From: Halalkaliarchaeum sp. AArc-CO
GTDB lineage: Archaea; Halobacteriota; Halobacteria; Halobacteriales; Haloferacaceae
DNA length: 64,000 bases
Assembly: GCF_024972735.1 (NCBI RefSeq)
Contig: NZ_CP087723.1
Coordinates: forward strand, 558,001 to 622,000
Direction of reading: 5' to 3'
Shown: piece by piece, positions 10,436 through 24,561 of the stretch
How positions within the stretch are numbered: the stretch's first letter is position 1
How the letters are laid out: every line of letters begins with the position of its first letter
Program-made: the position numbers and the translations under genes
Notes under the pieces: model-generated
What the model saw: the letters and a program-made list of their open reading frames with translations, nothing else
What the model was told of the DNA's origin: nothing
Databases searched by the model: none

Positions 10436-10650
10436 GAACCGAGACGGGGCCAAAGGATCGAGGAACCCGGGTTCCGTCCGCTTCGAGTCGTCCCCGGGTC
10501 GTCCGCGAGTCGACGCGATCGAATGCGTCCGAATCCTCTCTTTTCTCACCGCCTGGCCTCCAAGTTCACACCGCCTCCCACCGCACACCGCCTCCCCTCA
10601 CACCTCCCCAACCGATTCGCTCGCTGCGCTCGCTCATCCCTCGCGCGCTG

Positions 10651-10680
10651 GCTGGCGGGACACGAACGTCCCGCCAGCGC
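10651..10680. terminator. GC-rich hairpin downstream of truA
   Basis: The arms gctggcgggac and gtcccgccagc are perfectly complementary (11 bp) around a 6-base loop, with further GC pairing outside. On the minus strand it lies about 90 bases after the truA stop, so it could end or stabilise that transcript. It could also be a dispersed REP-like element. No clear T-run follows. Confidence 0.4.
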
Positions 10681-10769
10681 GCGCCATTTATAAGATCTAT
10701 CGGTCGCAGTTAGTGGCCCCTTATGTATCAATTGAGTCGTCAGTTATTCGGAAACACGTCAGGGTGACG

Positions 10770-11627
10770 TCACTCGCGCACCCGATCGACCACCTCGCCG
10801 GCGACCCGATCCAGCACTGCCCCCTGCCGCTTCCGCTCGATGAAGGCTTTCCGCGTCCGGTCGGCCGCCTCCGGGTCGACCTGGAACTCGACGTCCTGAT
10901 ACTCGACCGTTCGGAGCAGCAGCGGCTCCGGCGGCGCCGGGCCGATCCCGTCGGGCCCCGAGAGCGATTCGCTCCCCAGCACCCGGTCGATCCGTTCGAA
11001 CGACGACGCCCCCGTCGCGACTGACCGAACGAGTGTGGCCAGCCGGCGCACGAACTCGCGGGGAAACCCGCCTGCCGTCGCGTCGATGAGAAAAAACCGG
11101 CCCGCACGAGTGCCGGACAGCCGGAGGTCGCGCTCGGTCCCGTCGTCGTCGGGCGTGAGATTGCAAAAATCGTGCCGGCCCGTGAGCCGGGAGAGCGCTC
11201 GCCGGGCGCGGTCGTCGTCGAAGCCGGTCGTGTCCGGGTCGATCGCGTCCGGGTCGATCGCGTCGGCTCCCCCGGTCGGCGCGTACAGGAAGTACCGGTA
11301 CGACCGCGAGTTGGCGTCGTGGGTGGCGTGAAAGTCGTCGCCGACGTCGGCGGCCGCCCAGGCCCGGACGCTCCCCGGGAGTTCGCTGTTGAGCGCCCGT
11401 GGAGTCAGCCAGCCCGGGGCCTCGAAGGCGACGGTCTGTGCGACGGCGGAGACGCCGGCGTCCGTCCTTCCCGCGGCCGCGTATCCGGGCGGCTTGTCGG
11501 CGTCGGCGGCGAGGACGGACAACGCCCGGAGGGCGTCGAAGAGGACGTCCTCGACAGTGGGGACGTTCGGCTGGCGCTGGAATCCGTGAAACGGTCGGCC
11601 GTCGTAGGCGATCCGGAACGCGCGCAT
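10770..11627 (-). CDS. truA: tRNA pseudouridine(38-40) synthase TruA
   Basis: This 285-residue enzyme isomerises uridines in the tRNA anticodon stem-loop to pseudouridine. It starts MRAFRIAYDGRPFHGFQRQP and contains the catalytic loop AAGRTDAGVSA (Asp in GRTDAG), then SRSYRYFLYAP and RFFLIDATAGGFPREFVRRL, all TruA landmarks. It sits downstream of hisS in the same direction with a 30-base gap, so an operon with hisS is likely. The Asp/Pro-rich insert at 'DAIDPDAIDPDTT' is a small internal duplication typical of halophile linkers. Confidence 0.95.
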   Translation of the reverse strand: MRAFRIAYDGRPFHGFQRQPNVPTVEDVLFDALRALSVLAADADKPPGYAAAGRTDAGVSAVAQTVAFEAPGWLTPRALNSELPGSVRAWAAADVGDDFHATHDANSRSYRYFLYAPTGGADAIDPDAIDPDTTGFDDDRARRALSRLTGRHDFCNLTPDDDGTERDLRLSGTRAGRFFLIDATAGGFPREFVRRLATLVRSVATGASSFERIDRVLGSESLSGPDGIGPAPPEPLLLRTVEYQDVEFQVDPEAADRTRKAFIERKRQGAVLDRVAGEVVDRVRE

Positions 11628-17565: not shown

Positions 17566-17683
17566 CACGATTGATGCTATAGTATAAATTTATAAATATT
17601 TCCCAGGGATTCCAGCCTATCGAGAACGTTGTACACTCGCCGTCACTGGCGTGCCACAACGGCGTGCAAAGGGAGTGAAGCGG

Positions 17684-17869
17684 TCACGACTGTGCGATCG
17701 ACGTGAACTCCTCGTCGCAGACTGACGCACCGCACACCGGACAGCCGTGGGTCAAAAGCGCCTCCCGCATCCCGGAGTTGACCTCGAACTCCTCGCCGCA
17801 GTCGGAACACTCGAACGCGTAGTCGTCGGTGGGGGATTCGCTCATCGTAGGTTGTCTGATCGTCGTCAT
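17684..17869 (-). CDS. Small zinc-ribbon protein (61 aa), coupled to upstream regulator
   Basis: This paralogue of 17398-17565 carries CSDC and CPVC pairs around an ALLTHGC segment, with a third partial CDEE at the end. The ATG at 17869 overlaps the TGA of the regulator gene (ATGA), which argues for translational coupling. An alternative start at 17845 (MSESPTDDYAF) gives 53 residues and aligns better with the paralogue. Probably co-expressed with the winged-helix regulator, as a partner or output. No function assigned. Confidence 0.75.
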   Translation of the reverse strand: MTTIRQPTMSESPTDDYAFECSDCGEEFEVNSGMREALLTHGCPVCGASVCDEEFTSIAQS

Positions 17870-18273
17870 CGACTTTCCGGGTCGGACTCCCGGCCGTCAC
17901 CGTCGGCGGCGACCTGGCGGAAGTCGACCGACAGTTCGTCGCCGGCTCGAAGCGAGACGGCGAGGGTGTCGAACGTCGTCGAGAACTCGGTGGGATGGTT
18001 GTTCCGGGAGCGGATGCGGCGGCCCTCTTCGAGGAGCCCGGCGTCGCCGAGCAGTTCGAGCTTCCGGTACACCGTCGACAGCGGGAGGTCACACGCGTCG
18101 GCACACTCCTGTGCGGTTCTGGGACGCTCCTCGCAGGCGGACAGCAGCTGCCGGCAGTCGGGATCGCCCAGTGCCGAAAGGACCTCGGCCGGATCCGCCT
18201 CGGGCTCGCCGACGGAAACGCTCGGATGTCGGTCCGGAACGTCGCGTCGAGCCTGGGTTAGGGAGGCGTTCAT
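17866..18273 (-). CDS. Winged-helix transcriptional regulator (paralogue of 15567-15944)
   Basis: This 135-residue regulator contains QECADACDLPLSTVYRKLEL followed by LGDAGLLEEGRRIRSRNNHP, an ArsR-like winged helix with a wing rich in Arg/Asn, then a beta-rich C-terminal half (AVSLRAGDELSVDFRQV). It is clearly related to the regulator at 15567-15944. I use the ATG at 18273. Its stop overlaps the start of the zinc-ribbon gene by four bases. The pairing suggests a two-gene regulatory unit that has been duplicated locally and partly rearranged. Confidence 0.8.
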   Translation of the reverse strand: MNASLTQARRDVPDRHPSVSVGEPEADPAEVLSALGDPDCRQLLSACEERPRTAQECADACDLPLSTVYRKLELLGDAGLLEEGRRIRSRNNHPTEFSTTFDTLAVSLRAGDELSVDFRQVAADGDGRESDPESR

Positions 18274-18329
18274 ATCTCTACACACGAACTCTCCCCGCAG
18301 GTATCCGGTTCCACGATATCAGGGGTGGT

Positions 18330-19520
18330 TTAAGTGTCGTCGGCATCGACGCCGCGATCGTGAGGCTGGGAGACGAACCACGGCTTCTCGTCGGGATCGT
18401 ACTCGTCGATCGCCCCGCCGTGGCTCCGAGTCTCCGGGGCGAGTACGCCGACGTGTTTCAGTTGCTGGACGAAGTTGAACAGGACGTTGTTGCGGACCAC
18501 GTCCGTCCAGACGCCACGATCCTGGTAGAGTCGTTCGCTCTCGCCCCGCTCGATCAGTTCCCTCGCCTGCTCGCGCCCTCCGGTGGTACAGAACGCGCTC
18601 AAAAAGACGTTCGGATACTCCCGGACCAGCCGTTCGAGCAGTTCCGGGAAGTACACCACCTCGCCTTCCTTCCGGAGCGCCTCCAGCAGGAGCCCGAACG
18701 CGGGATGACGACTGAAGGAGTTGCGCAAGAGGATCGCAATCGGGTGGTGGATTTCGACGACGGTACTCCCCCGGGTATTCTCTTTCGCGAGCCGGAGGTC
18801 ATCGAGAGTCTCGATCCCGTAGCCCCGCAGGACGGTCGCGGCAAGTTCCCCCTGATCGGTGAGTGTGATGGGGCGGGACGAAGCGAGGAGACCGAGCGTC
18901 TCGGCGCCGGCCAGTGCTTCGCTTCCGGCTTGGAAACTGTACTCGTCTTCGATGGTCTCGAGGAGCGCTTCCCGCCCGAGCGGACCACGTCGGTCGACGG
19001 CCACGACGGGGGCGAGGTAGTTCAGCGGCTGGGTCAAAGACAGCGTCGTGACGTCCCCGCCGAACTCGGCCCCCTGGAGATGAAGCGACAGCTGTCCCTC
19101 GACGTCGGCCACCTGCCGAGCTGACTCGGCGGCCGGCGGCGACCGAACGAAGGAGACGCCCTCGTCGCCGACGCCGATAGCACCGACACCCTTCGCTCCC
19201 AGCAGGTCGCCGTGGGAGGCGACTGCCGACTCCTCGGCGGCGAGATACGAGACGTGAGCGCCATACTGATACGTCAACGCCTGTCCGATCCCCCGTAGGA
19301 TCCCGCTCGAGCCTTTTACCTCGACGGCGAAGACCCGGTTCGCGTCCGTAAACCCGAGAACGTCCGGATACCGGCCGCGGATCGAAATTTCGTGGCGGCG
19401 ACACCGGTCCAGGACGTCGGCGTACGTATCGGCGTGAGCCTCCGGAACGTGCACGAGCGGCTCGTACTCCCGGTCCCGGAGCTCGGTGACGACGCGATCG
19501 AAAGCCGTCGCCTCCTCCAT
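18330..19520 (-). CDS. Conserved haloarchaeal protein with PD-(D/E)XK-like N-terminal motif
   Basis: This 396-residue protein begins MEEATAFDRVVTELRDREYE. Residues about 45-100 read 'RYPDVLGFTDANRVFAVEVKG', then a helix with GQALTYQYGAHVSYLAA, which looks like the PD-(D/E)XK nuclease core (Asp...Glu-Val-Lys) plus a conserved Q helix. The C-terminal 250 residues are helical and may include winged-helix segments (PITLTDQGELAATVLRG). It could be a nuclease or an inactivated relative; I do not recognise a named family. The start is at 19520; the nine upstream residues to 19547 are Arg-rich and less likely. Confidence 0.7.
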   Translation of the reverse strand: MEEATAFDRVVTELRDREYEPLVHVPEAHADTYADVLDRCRRHEISIRGRYPDVLGFTDANRVFAVEVKGSSGILRGIGQALTYQYGAHVSYLAAEESAVASHGDLLGAKGVGAIGVGDEGVSFVRSPPAAESARQVADVEGQLSLHLQGAEFGGDVTTLSLTQPLNYLAPVVAVDRRGPLGREALLETIEDEYSFQAGSEALAGAETLGLLASSRPITLTDQGELAATVLRGYGIETLDDLRLAKENTRGSTVVEIHHPIAILLRNSFSRHPAFGLLLEALRKEGEVVYFPELLERLVREYPNVFLSAFCTTGGREQARELIERGESERLYQDRGVWTDVVRNNVLFNFVQQLKHVGVLAPETRSHGGAIDEYDPDEKPWFVSQPHDRGVDADDT

Positions 19521-19649
19521 ACTCCGCCGGTCGACGCGCCGGCGCAAGAAACTACCGCCAGTAGGCTCTCACCCGGTTCGATGAACTGCTCTTCCCCGGC
19601 CCGTTGAGCGAAGCTTATCAGTCTCAATCCACTATAGGGTGACGACTGA

Positions 19650-20303
19650 ATGGTGACCCCGTCCGAGGTGTTGAACGTCGACGACGACGCCGACGAAGCC
19701 GAGATCCGACGTGCGTACCGCGAGCGGATCAAGGAGGCCCATCCCGATCAGGGCGGCAGCATGGAGGAGTTCCAGCTCGTCAGGCGCGCCTATCGGCTGC
19801 TGAAAAAGCGTGCGCGGAACGGGGCCGACGTCGACGCGGACGTCGACCTCACGGACGACGCCGACGCGACGGTTGAGGTCGGGCCCGCAACCGTCGAGTA
19901 TCTCGATTACGAAGTCGTCGCGGATCGCGGCTGGGACCTGTACGACGACGACGTGTTCGGGAAAGCGGCGATCGCGGACCTTCCGCCGGAGGCGTACGGC
20001 CGGCTACTCGTCGAGCCCGAGGAGACGCTGCTAGAGGCGGCCGAAAATCGGGGGTTCGTCTGGCCGTTCTCCTGTCGGGGCGGCGCCTGCGCGAACTGTG
20101 CGGTGTATCTCGTCGAGGGCGAACTCTCCCAGCCCGTCAACCACATCATGCCCGACGAGCTTTCCGACACCGGCTTCCGGCTCTCGTGTAACGGCTATCC
20201 CGCCAGCACCGAGCTGAAGGTGGTCTTCAACGTGAAACACCTCCCCGAACTCGACGACCTGATACTGCCCCCGGGCCCGTTCGCCTGGGCGCATTCGGAA
20301 TGA
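19650..20303 (+). CDS. J-domain / 2Fe-2S ferredoxin fusion protein
   Basis: This 217-residue protein joins an N-terminal J-like domain (residues 1-55, with the HPD tripeptide at 31-33, as HPDQGG) to a plant-type [2Fe-2S] ferredoxin. Cluster ligands are C142, C147, C150 (CRGGACANC) and C180 (LSCNGYP). An Asp-rich linker (55-80) joins them. The J domain would stimulate Hsp70 (DnaK), and the ferredoxin would carry electrons. The combination suggests delivery of redox power or help with Fe-S assembly, but that is inference. Ferredoxins of this halophilic type are known in haloarchaea. The ATG at 19650 has a TATA-like gcttatca about 30 bases upstream. Confidence 0.88.
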   Translation: MVTPSEVLNVDDDADEAEIRRAYRERIKEAHPDQGGSMEEFQLVRRAYRLLKKRARNGADVDADVDLTDDADATVEVGPATVEYLDYEVVADRGWDLYDDDVFGKAAIADLPPEAYGRLLVEPEETLLEAAENRGFVWPFSCRGGACANCAVYLVEGELSQPVNHIMPDELSDTGFRLSCNGYPASTELKVVFNVKHLPELDDLILPPGPFAWAHSE

Positions 20304-20385
20304 ACTCGGATGAGGATCTTTCGTGACGAAGGCCGAGGACTGATTTCGATGCGGATCCAACGTGAGCCACGGACCCTCACCGCCG

Positions 20386-20892
20386 ATGTTTGAAGCGATC
20401 GTCGACGCCGTGTTCGCCCTCCTCTTGTACGTCGGGCTCCCCGCCCTGTTCGTCTTTTTCGTCCTGAAGGGGGCGTTCGTCGCCAAGCCGATTCCCACGA
20501 CGGTGGTTCTTCCGGGTTACGTGCTGGCGATCTCCGCGACCCGGGAAGAGATGATCCTCGTCGTCCTCGTCTCGGCGACCGGCAACGTCATCGGTCAGAT
20601 GTCAATCTACTATCTGGCGCGACGGGAGGGGCTGACGTACGTCCAGTCCTCAGAACGGTTCTCGATTCCGTCCGAACGGATCGAACAGGCCGAACGGTGG
20701 CTGGATCGGTACGGCGGCATCGGCGTGTTCGTTACGAATTTCGTTCCGTATCTCCGTGGGCTGATCTTCATTCCGGCCGGGATCGCCCGCTACCCCGTCC
20801 CGCCGCTCGTATTCTTCGCCTTCTCGTCGACGCTGATATATCACGCCGCCATCGTCGCGATTGCTGTCGGTCTCGTCAGGGCGATCTTTTGA
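20386..20892 (+). CDS. DedA/VTT-domain membrane protein
   Basis: This 168-residue inner-membrane protein is of the SNARE-associated/DedA (VTT) superfamily. It has hydrophobic helices at about 10-35, 45-70, 110-140 and 145-168. The family core is visible as FVAKPIPTTVVLPG, ISATREEMILVVLVSATGN, and the re-entrant motif RYGGIGVFVTNFVPYLRGLI with the conserved 'G-x-F-x-x-R-F-x-P-x-x-R' idea. A GTG at 20362 adds eight residues; the ATG at 20386 is more likely. Family knowledge: these proteins move lipids such as undecaprenyl phosphate or help envelope stress. Substrate not known here. Confidence 0.82.
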   Translation: MFEAIVDAVFALLLYVGLPALFVFFVLKGAFVAKPIPTTVVLPGYVLAISATREEMILVVLVSATGNVIGQMSIYYLARREGLTYVQSSERFSIPSERIEQAERWLDRYGGIGVFVTNFVPYLRGLIFIPAGIARYPVPPLVFFAFSSTLIYHAAIVAIAVGLVRAIF

Positions 20893-21031
20893 CCCGCGGC
20901 CACCGTGCCGGCGCGTTCGGATCGCTCCGTCCGGATCGCTCTGTCCGAATCGCTCCGGTCTGGACGGCGTACTCGGAAACCCGGAAGCTCCCTCCCGTCG
21001 CTTATGCATTCTCCTGCCGACCCGTGTCAAC

Positions 21032-21730
21032 ATGATCGGTTCACGTCCGGGCAGACACACTACCCCGGAGCTTCCGAGCCTCGAACCGGGAACCCAGCTG
21101 CTCGACGTCGATTCGGAGGCGTCCCGGGCCGTTCACGCGTTGACTGTCGATCACGTCCTGCTGTCGTCGGGGGACGCCTGCTGGATCGATCCCGGGCCGC
21201 ACGCACGTTCGGCACCGTTCGTCGAACTCGCGCCGTCCGACAGGATCCTCGACCGCATCCGCCTCGCACGCGGGTTTACGCCGTTCCAGCACCTGGCCCT
21301 GATCGAGTCGGCGCCCGAGCTGCTGTCCGACCGCACCGAGCTGGTCGTCGTCCCCGAGATCGACGGGCGCTACCGGGACGACGATCTCCTCGCCGGGGAG
21401 GGTCGGGAGCTGCTCCTGTCGGCACTCGCGGCTCTCGCCCGGATCGCCCGCGAGCACGAGATCCCCGTCCTGGTCACGCGGGTGGCGGACGACGAGTTCG
21501 GCCGGCCGATCGCGCACGCGGCATCTCGGGAGCTCCACTGTCGCTCGACGCCGTTCGGCCCCCGGTTCCTGACAGGTGACGGAGACGGGGAAACGCTCGT
21601 GTATCCGGTCGACGGCGGGGCGAGCGTACAGACGACACTCGCGTTCTGGAAGCGCGTGCTCGCCGCCCGGACGCCGCTGTACGACGGCCCCGGGCTCCAT
21701 CAGGAGGTGACACACCGTGGGTCGAACTAA
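21032..21730 (+). CDS. RecA/RadB-like fold protein without a P-loop
   Basis: This 232-residue protein begins MIGSRPGRHTTPELPSLEPG. The layout resembles RadA/RadB: a 'PSLEPGTQLLDV' entry, a WIDPG strand, an ARGFTPFQHLALIE segment, ELVVVPEIDGRYRDDDL as a Walker B-like strand, then IAREHEIPVLVTRVADDEFG. There is no GxxGxGKT/S P-loop where one is expected, so it probably does not hydrolyse ATP. Its stop overlaps the next gene by 14 bases and that gene overlaps the PolB fragment by 17, so the three genes form one cassette. A SulA/ImuA-like accessory role to a polymerase is inferred. Confidence 0.55.
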   Translation: MIGSRPGRHTTPELPSLEPGTQLLDVDSEASRAVHALTVDHVLLSSGDACWIDPGPHARSAPFVELAPSDRILDRIRLARGFTPFQHLALIESAPELLSDRTELVVVPEIDGRYRDDDLLAGEGRELLLSALAALARIAREHEIPVLVTRVADDEFGRPIAHAASRELHCRSTPFGPRFLTGDGDGETLVYPVDGGASVQTTLAFWKRVLAARTPLYDGPGLHQEVTHRGSN

Positions 21731-22064
21731 CCCCACCTACCGGGATCGGCTCGCGTCGATCGAACGGGAGTGGCAGTCATACCGCCGCGGGTTGCGGGCC
21801 GTCGACCAGCCGCGGTTCGATCGGCTGTTCGAACACGGGCGAGGGTACGCCCACGCGGCGAGCAATCTCAACCACCCGACGCCGGAGCTTCCGTTGCTCG
21901 TCTCGGCGCTTCTGGCCCACCAGCGGCGACTCGACGAACGCGAGCAGCGGCTCGACGCTCTCGAGCAACGACTCGACGAACGCGAGCAGCGGCTCGACGC
22001 TCTCGAGCAGCGGTTCGACGAACTCGCGGATCGACGTTCCGGTGGAGATGCCGTTCTCGATTGA
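21717..22064 (+). CDS. Small coiled-coil protein in the RecA-like/PolB cassette
   Basis: This 115-residue protein starts at GTG 21717 (MGRTNPTYRDRLASIEREW), 14 bases before the previous gene stops. The first 60 residues are globular; residues about 70-108 are a strong heptad coiled coil built from two near-perfect repeats of LDEREQRLDALEQR. It overlaps the start of the PolB fragment by 17 bases. It might link the RecA-like protein and a polymerase or oligomerise. No named family recognised. Confidence 0.65.
   Translation: MGRTNPTYRDRLASIEREWQSYRRGLRAVDQPRFDRLFEHGRGYAHAASNLNHPTPELPLLVSALLAHQRRLDEREQRLDALEQRLDEREQRLDALEQRFDELADRRSGGDAVLD
21930..22013 (+). repeat. 42-bp tandem repeat (2 copies) encoding coiled-coil heptads
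   Basis: Two adjacent 42-base units, differing only at the last few bases, each encode 14 residues, i.e. two heptads. Such repeats expand and contract by slippage, so the coiled-coil length may vary between strains. Confidence 0.85.
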
Positions 22065-22712
22065 GTACGCTGACGGGGCGGTACTGGAATGGTACGCCAC
22101 CGATGACGGCGCTCGCGTTCGGCGCGTCTCGGACTACGAACCGACGATATACGTCGCGTCGCAGTCCGCAGACGACTTGTCGTCGCTCGTGGCCGCTCTG
22201 CACGACCGGACTGACGTCAGCCGGACCTCGCGGGAACGCTGGCGCACCGCGTTCCGAAACGATCCGGAGCCGGTGCTCCGGATCGACGTCGCCTCGATCG
22301 ACCGGGTTCGGCCGCTCGCCGGCTGGATTCGCCGCCGGGACCGTCCCGGCACGTACCGGCTGTTCAACGTCGACCTGTCCCCGGAATTCCGGTACTGTCT
22401 CGAACGCGACGTTACACCGGTTCCCGATCGGGAGCTCCGAACGCTGAAGCTGGGCGATCCCACGTCCGGGACGCCGGACGATCCGGTCACTGCCGTCGAA
22501 TTCGGTGGCGAGTCGGCCGAACGCGAACAGATCGAGGGCGATCCGACCCACGTCCTCGGGACGCTTTCAGACCGCCTGGAACGGGTCGATCCGGACGTTC
22601 TCGTCTGTTCGTCGGCGGAACTGGTCCCTGCGCTGTTCGAGACCGCACGCGCCCACGACTGTGACTTCCAGCTCGGGCGCCGCCCCGGGTACGAACAGCT
22701 GGCGGGCGCGTC
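22048..22712 (+). pseudogene. Truncated family-B DNA polymerase (PolB2-like), N-terminal part only
   Basis: About 220 codons starting MPFSIEYADGAVLEWYATDD resemble the N-terminal domain of the haloarchaeal second B-family DNA polymerase, including RTAFRNDPEPVLRIDV, YRLFNVDLSPEFRYCLE, VPDRELRTLKLG and LGRRPGYEQLAG. Full-length members are around 700 residues with exonuclease, palm and thumb domains. Here the similarity stops near 22705, where unrelated sequence starts. The reading frame runs on to 23232 but with no recognisable protein, so I treat the gene as broken. It is the last member of the RecA-like/coiled-coil cassette. Confidence 0.65.
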
Positions 22713-22829
22713 GACGAGCCCAGATCGAAGCGCACGGTCCGGAAGTACCTCCGGAAACTGGAGCAGTACAACCTCGTCGAAAGCGAAGGCCGCGGTCCGA
22801 GTCGCAGATACGACATCGTACAGAAGTAA
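22713..22829 (+). pseudogene. 3' fragment of a winged-helix gene at the PolB breakpoint
   Basis: In a different frame from the PolB fragment, 38 codons ending TAA at 22827-22829 read DEPRSKRTVRKYLRKLEQYN then LVESEGRGPSRRYDIVQK. This looks like the C-terminal winged helix of a replication initiator or regulator (helix, helix, wing). No start codon belongs to it. It appears to be the tail of a gene joined to the truncated polymerase by deletion or recombination. The parent family is uncertain. Confidence 0.5.
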
Positions 22830-22830
22830 T

Positions 22831-22863
22831 CGGGCGGTCGGCGGGCGGTCGGCGGGCGGTCGG
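22831..22863. repeat. Three tandem 11-bp repeats
   Basis: The unit cgggcggtcgg occurs three times in a row just after the broken polymerase/winged-helix junction. It is a simple slippage-type repeat and marks this stretch as non-coding. Confidence 0.8.
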
Positions 22864-22972
22864 CTGTGTTTCGATTCGAGTTCCTCCGCCCTGCGTCGAC
22901 GCGCTCGAACCCGGAAACCCGGAACCCCGGCGAGAACCCTCATTCCGCTATCGGAAGTAGAAACGGGCAGCC

Positions 22973-23665
22973 ATGGGAACGAAACTGACGCCGGTCGCGT
23001 TCGACATCGAAACCACGGGATTCGAAAGCGACGCCACCGTCACCGTCCTCGGTCTCGTCGTCCCGCGGGGGTGTCGCGTGTTCCTCAATACAGGTGGAAG
23101 ATCGGCCGATCGGGAACACCTCCAGCGGGACCTGGAAACGGCGTTCGACGCGGTCGTCCGTGTGAGTTGTCACCGGAACGAACGGAAACTCCTGGCGGCG
23201 GTTGCGGAATTCGTCGCGGAATCGATCGCTGACGACGACTACATGCTGGTCGCGTACAACGGCGAACTGTATCGCGGCGGGTTCGACCTTCCGTTTCTGC
23301 GTACGCGGTGTGCGCTGCTTGACTGCCGGTGGCCGTTTGACGGCGTCCCCTACGCGGATCTGCTTCCGATATTCAGGGCCCGGTTCAACACGACCGTCGG
23401 CGAGGAACAGGTGAACGATCTCGTGGGCGCTTATAAGGCGCTGATCGGCGACGGAATGACCGCCCTGGACCCGTTCGAGGAGAGTCTGGAAGCCGTCACG
23501 GCGTTCGAGCGCGGCGAGTTCCGGCCCCTGCTGGCGCACAACATCGCGGACATCCTCCGGACGGACGCGCTCGCGGGGCTCGCCCAGCGATACTGCGGGA
23601 CTTCCGAGTTCGATCTCAAGTCGCTCACGCCGACGCTTCGCGATCCGGCGTTGACCGACGGCTAG
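22973..23665 (+). CDS. DEDD-type 3'-5' exonuclease-like (RNase H fold) protein
   Basis: This 230-residue protein begins MGTKLTPVAFDIETTGFESD with the exonuclease I motif DIETTG (Asp11, Glu13). Motif II-like YNGELYRGGFDLPFLRTR and a C-terminal HNIADILRTDALAGLA (motif III-like His...Asp) follow. It fits the YprB/RNase H-like exonuclease group that trims DNA or RNA 3' ends. The start is the ATG at 22973. It lies downstream of the broken polymerase cassette, so a DNA repair link is possible but unproven. Confidence 0.8.
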   Translation: MGTKLTPVAFDIETTGFESDATVTVLGLVVPRGCRVFLNTGGRSADREHLQRDLETAFDAVVRVSCHRNERKLLAAVAEFVAESIADDDYMLVAYNGELYRGGFDLPFLRTRCALLDCRWPFDGVPYADLLPIFRARFNTTVGEEQVNDLVGAYKALIGDGMTALDPFEESLEAVTAFERGEFRPLLAHNIADILRTDALAGLAQRYCGTSEFDLKSLTPTLRDPALTDG

Positions 23666-23726
23666 CAACCACCGACGGTGGTCACAACGCGGCTGGGGAA
23701 AATTGAATTCGGAGGCTACCGATCCG

Positions 23727-24071
23727 TCAGACGCCGGGGACGCCGAACGCGCTGATGCCGAGACCGAGCACGCTGTTCAGTAGTGCGATAATGAGCAGCG
23801 CGGCCACCCACGCCACCAGCCCCATGATCGCGGCGTCCTTCCAGCCGCCGGGATATCGCCACTTGATGACCCAGATCCAGGCGATCAGCGCGACCAGCGA
23901 CCCGATCAGCGGAATCAACGACCCGATCGCCCAGGCGATGGCACCGATCAGTGCCGTAATCACCGCGTGCGAGTAATCGTCGACGCCCGTGACGACGCGA
24001 CCACTGATGTAAATTGCCAGTCCACCGATCAGGAGCGCAACGACGAAAGAGACGAGTGTTCCAAGGACCAT
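23727..24071 (-). CDS. Small multi-helix membrane protein
   Basis: This 114-residue protein is almost entirely hydrophobic, with about four helices (3-25, 35-65, 80-100 and the tail). The middle has KWRYPGGWKDAAIMGLVAW, a polar turn. It converges with the exonuclease gene. It resembles small haloarchaeal membrane proteins of unknown function. Start at ATG 24071. Confidence 0.65.
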   Translation of the reverse strand: MVLGTLVSFVVALLIGGLAIYISGRVVTGVDDYSHAVITALIGAIAWAIGSLIPLIGSLVALIAWIWVIKWRYPGGWKDAAIMGLVAWVAALLIIALLNSVLGLGISAFGVPGV

Positions 24072-24561
24072 ACCTGACGCATTGGCTGCCAGTCGTATAT
24101 ATTGTGGGGTAATTATATCAGATAAATTATCTAGTTTGTCAGACGCAAGTCAGACGTTTCGACATTTAATTGATCAAAAATGTATATGTTTTTCAGGTTA
24201 TATTAACTAACCACCGTCACAACATTGTCTCGTGACCTACTACCGTACGACACGTCGCTTCGTACGGTTCGTCTCGGCGATGCGATGGAGATCTTCGCGG
24301 TGGTCGTTCCACGTGGCGTACTTCGATATCGGCGTCGTTCCTACTGGTGTTCTGCTCTTCACTGCCATTTTGGTTCCTCGATAGTATATTACGCCTTACG
24401 AGGTAATAACATCTTTTCACAATCACCGTGAATACTTCTCGTTACGATAACGTTTAGCAGACTAATTCCCCCAGTTTTCGTATTGACAATTTCTGTCACC
24501 GAAGGACTGGCGTCCCGCCGTCGTAGCCCCCAGAACGGACCGTTTGTGCGTCCAGCCCTCC
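24072..24561. other. AT-rich intergenic region
   Basis: These 490 bases are clearly AT-richer than their surroundings, for example around 24100-24215 and 24370-24500. They include a perfect palindrome agataaattatct at 24120-24132. Two short overlapping open frames near 24217-24431 have no recognisable features and unlike-host codon use, so I call no gene. It may be a decayed insertion or a promoter-rich spacer. Confidence 0.5.

Follow-up and report, generated by a model that had tools for sequence, protein, structure and literature searches.

The gene cluster analysed here, which lies in a 64,000-nucleotide stretch of the Halalkaliarchaeum sp. AArc-CO genome (the window), is very probably a recently disabled chromosomal copy of the haloarchaeal PolB2 mutasome operon. 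Its three overlapping genes are those of the known operon (PMC4104785, PMC11791011), present as a degenerate copy rather than a working member because the polymerase core is absent: the polymerase gene stops at codon 221 of ~708. The core is present in the sister species (G015) and on contig C1 of the same genome. The broken trio is thus a decayed copy of a described system, and the additions made here are the link with a freestanding exonuclease and a candidate operator. The genes and remnants of the broken operon are as follows.

21032..21730, forward strand: iRadA, RadA/Rad51-like, 232 aa, no Walker A
21717..22064, forward strand: PPB2 (arCOG07300-like), GTG start leading into the MGRT arm; C-terminal coiled coil
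22048..22710, forward strand: 5′ fragment of polB2, codons 1–221 of ~708; 82% identical to G015 PolB2
22707..22710, forward strand: deletion junction, CGCG 4-bp microhomology; 2,423 bp of G015 missing
22711..22829, forward strand: 3′ remnant of orc1/cdc6, C-terminal winged helix ending ...DEPRSKRTVRKYLRKLEQYNLVESEGRGPSRRYDIVQK and stop; out of frame with polB2

The first-pass annotation of this DNA had proposed an overlapping cassette, made together, of a RecA-like protein without a P-loop, a coiled-coil protein and a secondary B-family polymerase cut after about 220 residues, and each of these elements was borne out. The three open reading frames are present and overlap by 14 and 17 bases. 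With iRadA as query, phmmer matched residues 47–179 to archaeal RadA chains in the PDB (E 2e-6); the match to Pfam Rad51 (E 2.3e-4) scores 21 bits, one bit below the curated cut-off of 22, and no Walker A motif (G-x4-GK[TS]) was found in the protein. In its C-terminal region, QTTLAFWK (window 21629–21652) is similar to a PCNA-binding motif; such a likeness has been reported for many archaeal iRadA proteins. The short second protein, read from the GTG at 21717, begins (M)GRTNPTYRD, in which MGRT is the diagnostic arm, and its residues 1–72 are 98.6% identical to those of the sister species. Its coiled coil contains additional heptad-type repeats (DEREQRLDALEQRL, window 21930–22040) absent from G015, which suggests that the length of the tail varies with repeat number. 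The third frame has PolB2 homology for 221 codons, and comparison with G015 shows that the break is real. Genuine polB2 sequence extends to 22710, two bases short of the 22712 given earlier; beyond it the frame runs on, out of register, to 23232. NCBIfam gave no useful name for iRadA, PPB2 or the exonuclease described below.

The linkage of PolB2 with an inactivated RadA and arCOG07300, often together with an orc gene, was described by Makarova and colleagues, who also found additional copies of the RadA–arCOG07300 pair in some haloarchaea (PMC4104785). The complex modelled by Timinskas and colleagues, who also coined the name of the MGRT arm, is a heteropentamer in which iRadA and PolB2 accompany a PPB2 trimer (PMC11791011); PolB2 of Sulfolobus is damage-induced and, according to work cited there, required in that organism for targeted mutagenesis. 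Our locus shares with this system (arCOG07763/arCOG07300/PolB2) the gene order, the MGRT arm, the ATPase-dead RadA homologue and the orc1/cdc6 neighbour, and, in the sister species and on C1, a full PolB2 whose first catalytic Asp is replaced (IVDS). It differs in that the window polymerase and orc are truncated by one deletion, and in the freestanding exonuclease and the common operator, both of which appear to be unreported, judging by the main texts of PMC4104785 and PMC11791011. The proposed error-prone repair module is hence a mutasome, but not a new one. The comparison first drawn with ImuA–ImuB–DnaE2 keeps its mutasome-like logic, that system and UmuC–UmuD′–RecA each combining a RecA-family partner with a damage-tolerance polymerase; it is an analogy only, as the polymerase families differ (here B-family PolB2, not C-family DnaE2), and the comparison used in the literature for the PolB2 mutasome is Pol V.

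The trio with a full polymerase, whose absence from every genome would have refuted the first reading, occurs in most relatives. We found 134 iRadA loci in 148 genomes of the family, with PolB2 at most 10 kb away in 120 of them, and a sample of 242 genomes drawn from the whole class has PolB2 in 158. Where PolB2 is missing, several loci retain iRadA and PPB2 (e.g. L158, L159), and some others lie at contig ends. IVDS, in which the first Asp of the DxD motif is replaced, is invariant in 46 PolB2 sequences of relatives.

G015, the sole further genome found for the genus, has the intact order iRadA–PPB2–PolB2–Orc–exonuclease. Window positions 17683–22715 align with it at 86%, as far as polB2 codon 221, and positions 22707–24163 align at 85%, starting within orc. 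Judged from these alignments, a single 2.4-kb deletion, known from one assembly of one strain, has placed the final 39 codons of orc1/cdc6 directly after polB2 codon 221, in another reading frame. The sequence lost relative to G015 is polB2 codons 222–708 and about the first 294 of the 333 codons of orc, and the orc operator would have gone with it. The remnant itself matches PF09079 (Cdc6_C, E 0.0029) and aligns to the tail of G015 orc. The suspected loss of the polymerase is therefore correct, with the amendment that one deletion also removed most of orc1/cdc6. In an alignment of 46 haloarchaeal PolB2 proteins the conserved sites all lie 3′ of the break: D319–R320 (in our reading the D(K/R) motif of PMC11791011), IVDS near 475 and motif A near 338. 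The fragment cannot be a polymerase, because it lacks the palm, and it also lacks the loop at which iRadA and PPB2 are expected to dock; going by the published models, it should neither polymerise nor dock its partners.

Downstream of the remnant lies an intact gene, and it and the iRadA gene are each preceded by a copy of the same direct repeat.

20974..20986, forward strand: candidate operator CGGAAACCCGGAA, a direct repeat 5′ of iRadA, ~14 nt before the TATA-like CTTATG
22912..22924, forward strand: second copy of the candidate operator, 5′ of the exonuclease
22973..23665, forward strand: predicted DEDD 3′-5′ exonuclease, 230 aa, of MrfB/RNase_H_2 type with the fold of a PolB proofreading domain

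The exonuclease gene begins 143 bp 3′ of the orc remnant. Its product matches PF13482 (E 2e-6), and D11, E13, D105, H189 and D193 are invariant in 30 sequences. The closest sequence match in the PDB is Bacillus subtilis MrfB (8un9, 8.5e-13), an RNase_H_2 protein of DEDDh type involved in mitomycin repair, with which it shares the catalytic set and the His-x3-Asp spacing (H258/D262 in MrfB, H189/D193 here). Different from MrfB, the protein is short and single-domain and is encoded with haloarchaeal PolB2 operons, and its fold search is topped by PolB proofreading domains. An alignment-based AlphaFold model (AF2, pLDDT 88), which replaced a single-sequence model of pLDDT 34, matches such domains with a Foldseek E of 1e-8 and VIA-align Z scores of 19–21 over residues 1–216 (Pol epsilon 21.3, archaeal PolB about 19). 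MrfB is absent among the best 50 fold matches of the model, which we did not count against relatedness. The model covers the PolB proofreading domain end to end; that domain is of DEDDy type and lies within a polymerase, whereas the protein here is encoded by a separate gene and carries His where Exo III has Tyr. PolB2 was long called inactivated, partly for its dead exonuclease domain. In the haloarchaeal PolB2 proteins an Exo I-like motif was found in 1 of 47 and an Exo II-like motif in 0 of 47, and on these motifs the internal domain is taken to be inactive.

Homologues of the exonuclease occur at 67 loci in the family, and 29 of these lie within 10 kb of iRadA, where ~0.4 would be expected by chance (an estimate); one of the 29, in G001, is divergently transcribed. 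The linkage takes at least four gene arrangements, and further linked cases were found in other families. In operons of the C1 type the gene follows PPB2, overlapping it by 4 nt, and precedes PolB2, which it abuts directly in L173 and L176; in L104 it lies between iRadA and PPB2, in the sister species (L102) and the window it is downstream of Orc, and in L103 and L170 it is divergent from Orc. Linked examples on Haloplanus rubicundus pCBA1113-02 and Halorubrum salinarum pHAR01 are annotated as 'ribonuclease H-like domain-containing protein'. In a tree of the exonucleases, whose long outgroup branches leave the root uncertain, the unlinked homologues group as one clade and the linked ones as two blocks. 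Most PolB2 operons have no exonuclease nearby, so the gene is an optional part of them, and no protein fusing the exonuclease to PPB2, iRadA or PolB2 turned up in a search. We had also considered it as an unrelated downstream gene, an idea rejected on the homologue inside the C1 operon and the several other arrangements. About 1 kb past the exonuclease of the sister species there is an integrase-like frame (L102, reverse complement 10504–11526; identified by eye from sequence only), which hints at a mobile or island boundary.

Exact matches to GGAAACCCGGAA number four in the whole 3.18-Mb genome, against ~0.4 expected from base composition (an estimate), and two of the four are at this locus (20975, before iRadA, and 22913, before the exonuclease); the reversed pattern does not occur. 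The other two (C2:1194911 and C2:1744414) turned out on inspection to lack a clear promoter setting, and a wider regulon is therefore not claimed. The operator position is conserved in G015, where a third copy precedes orc, and other genera carry CGGAA-N3-5-YGGAA at the same place, ~14–16 nt before a CTTAT-like TATA box. Among non-identical upstream regions the pattern matches 16 of 38 for iRadA (shuffled mean 0.04), 13 of 30 for Orc (0.12) and 4 of 5 for linked exonucleases outside C1-type operons (0.03), together with 2 of 72 PolB2 starts (0.22) and 0 of 19 unlinked exonucleases (0.07), counts that are not independent trials, since these regions share ancestry and some of them served to define the pattern. 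The strict pattern thus covers fewer than half of the promoters of iRadA and Orc; operons of the C1 type have a variant only, e.g. CTGAAACGCGGAAG, with the strict form in 3 of 43. The divergently transcribed exonucleases of L103 and L170 retain an operator copy of their own, which argues for shared control. On balance we favour the view that the CGGAA-N3-5-YGGAA operator governs a small regulon made up of iRadA, orc and the exonuclease.

Which protein binds the operator? By analogy, it is probably the adjacent Orc paralogue. In Sulfolobales, Orc1-2 is an activator of damage-response genes that also binds ANTTTC at the promoter of its own gene (PMC9738581), and this analogy makes the Orc paralogue the first candidate regulator. 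The likeness to the Orc1-2/DDRE regulon lies in an Orc1/Cdc6 paralogue linked to PolB2 and in a common element before promoters, including its own; the differences are the sequence, a CGGAA direct repeat as against ANTTTC, and the Orc binding, which is here predicted. With the operator before iRadA, orc and the exonuclease, haloarchaea accordingly have a specific candidate for a damage-response element, and a candidate regulator comes with it. To our knowledge no characterised equivalent of such a pair exists.

Why, then, has the exonuclease survived beside a disabled mutasome? Most likely it is a partner in the regulon. It is quite possible, though, that it is an independent MrfB-like repair nuclease hitchhiking near PolB2 operons on plasmids and islands: 38 of the 67 exonuclease loci are away from iRadA, the best PDB sequence match is MrfB, and the C1-type operon is often plasmid-borne, which favours passive linkage. 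Against hitchhiking stand the occurrence of the linkage in several arrangements and taxonomic families, the gene's close fit between its neighbours PPB2 and PolB2 in L173 and L176, together with the 4-nt PPB2 overlap of C1-type loci, and the operator copies, which separately transcribed linked exonucleases have for themselves and unlinked homologues do not.

With the exonuclease read as a regulon partner, the working form of the system, as in G015, can be pictured as follows. iRadA, PPB2 and PolB2 are made together and would form a translesion (extender) polymerase complex, as predicted by others; next to their genes are those of an Orc1/Cdc6 paralogue and of a freestanding exonuclease of PolB type. 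The Orc paralogue would bind CGGAA-N3-5-YGGAA and so control iRadA, orc and the exonuclease, and the exonuclease would work with the mutasome, by proofreading in trans or by end trimming, in place of the PolB2 exonuclease domain, which is dead. The window strain has lost polB2 and orc function to one microhomology deletion of 2.4 kb, and the operon on the second contig probably covers for it. The trans-proofreading role is the tentative part of this picture. The general form of the idea, in which haloarchaeal PolB2 mutasomes have a detachable proofreader, an active freestanding PolB-type exonuclease co-regulated through an Orc-bound operator and replacing the dead PolB2 domain in trans, we likewise regard as speculative. 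If it were true, an error-prone PolB2 could be switched between proofread and unproofread modes. An intact PolB-fold exonuclease encoded beside PolB2 prompts one to ask whether translesion synthesis in archaea is subject to editing in trans.

The remaining genes of the window operon were compared with those of G015 for signs of relaxed constraint. The dN/dS values are 0.28 for iRadA, 0.33 for the polB2 fragment, 0.037 for residues 1–72 of PPB2 and 0.18 for the exonuclease, and intact pairs in other genera give 0.07–0.37 for iRadA and 0.09–0.51 for the same part of PolB2. No relaxation was seen in the remaining genes, the values lying within the range of intact pairs; the ratio was accordingly dropped as a test of decay, and selection and decay are indistinguishable for these genes because the deletion may be too recent. 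An unlikely reading of these ratios, taken together with the absence of stop codons and frameshifts from iRadA, PPB2 and the 221-codon fragment, is that iRadA, PPB2 and the N-terminal part of PolB2 are maintained as a repurposed, polymerase-free complex with its own role, and iRadA–PPB2 pairs without PolB2 do exist elsewhere (e.g. L158 and L159; also in PMC4104785). Ratios inside the intact-pair range are also expected after a recent deletion, however, and the fragment ends in out-of-frame junk and lacks both the invariant D319–R320 and the loop before them that is thought to touch PPB2 and iRadA.

Nor are iRadA and PPB2 the orphan partners that the first-pass annotation took them for, since the same genome carries an intact second operon. 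It lies on the 167-kb contig C1 (G000 C1:79228–90018; L011:3228–14018) and consists of iRadA, PPB2, the exonuclease, an IS605-type TnpB inserted between exonuclease and PolB2, a full 721-aa PolB2 and Orc. Its proteins have diverged from those of the window operon (about 42–51% identity), and it probably covers the lost function of the disabled copy. It is very improbable that the deletion is an artefact of assembly or collapse in a strain that has an intact operon: although there is a single assembly only and a second PolB2 operon in the same genome could mislead an assembler, that operon, at only ~48% protein identity, could not be collapsed with the window copy, the junction is clean and has microhomology, and the 3.18-Mb genome contains no other close homologue of the window polB2.

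The C1 PolB2 is 80–96% identical to copies in many other haloarchaeal genera, which suggests frequent transfer. Between exonuclease and PolB2, some C1-type operons contain short decayed pieces of PPB2, exonuclease and PolB2 (L108:8946–9385 and 11173–11298; L128:9989–10399), as if operons had recombined or duplicated at that spot. A haloarchaeal iRadA–PPB2–exonuclease block, 64–78% identical to C1, was also seen in L132 (PUNF01000016.1), which is labelled Clostridia bacterium and is probably a misbinned contig. Elsewhere in the window, positions 18330–19547 (reverse strand), where gene order is collinear with that of the sister species, encode a protein of 405 aa that gave no Pfam hit at E 0.1, and positions 19650–20303 (forward strand) encode a single protein in which a DnaJ domain is fused to a 2Fe-2S ferredoxin domain.
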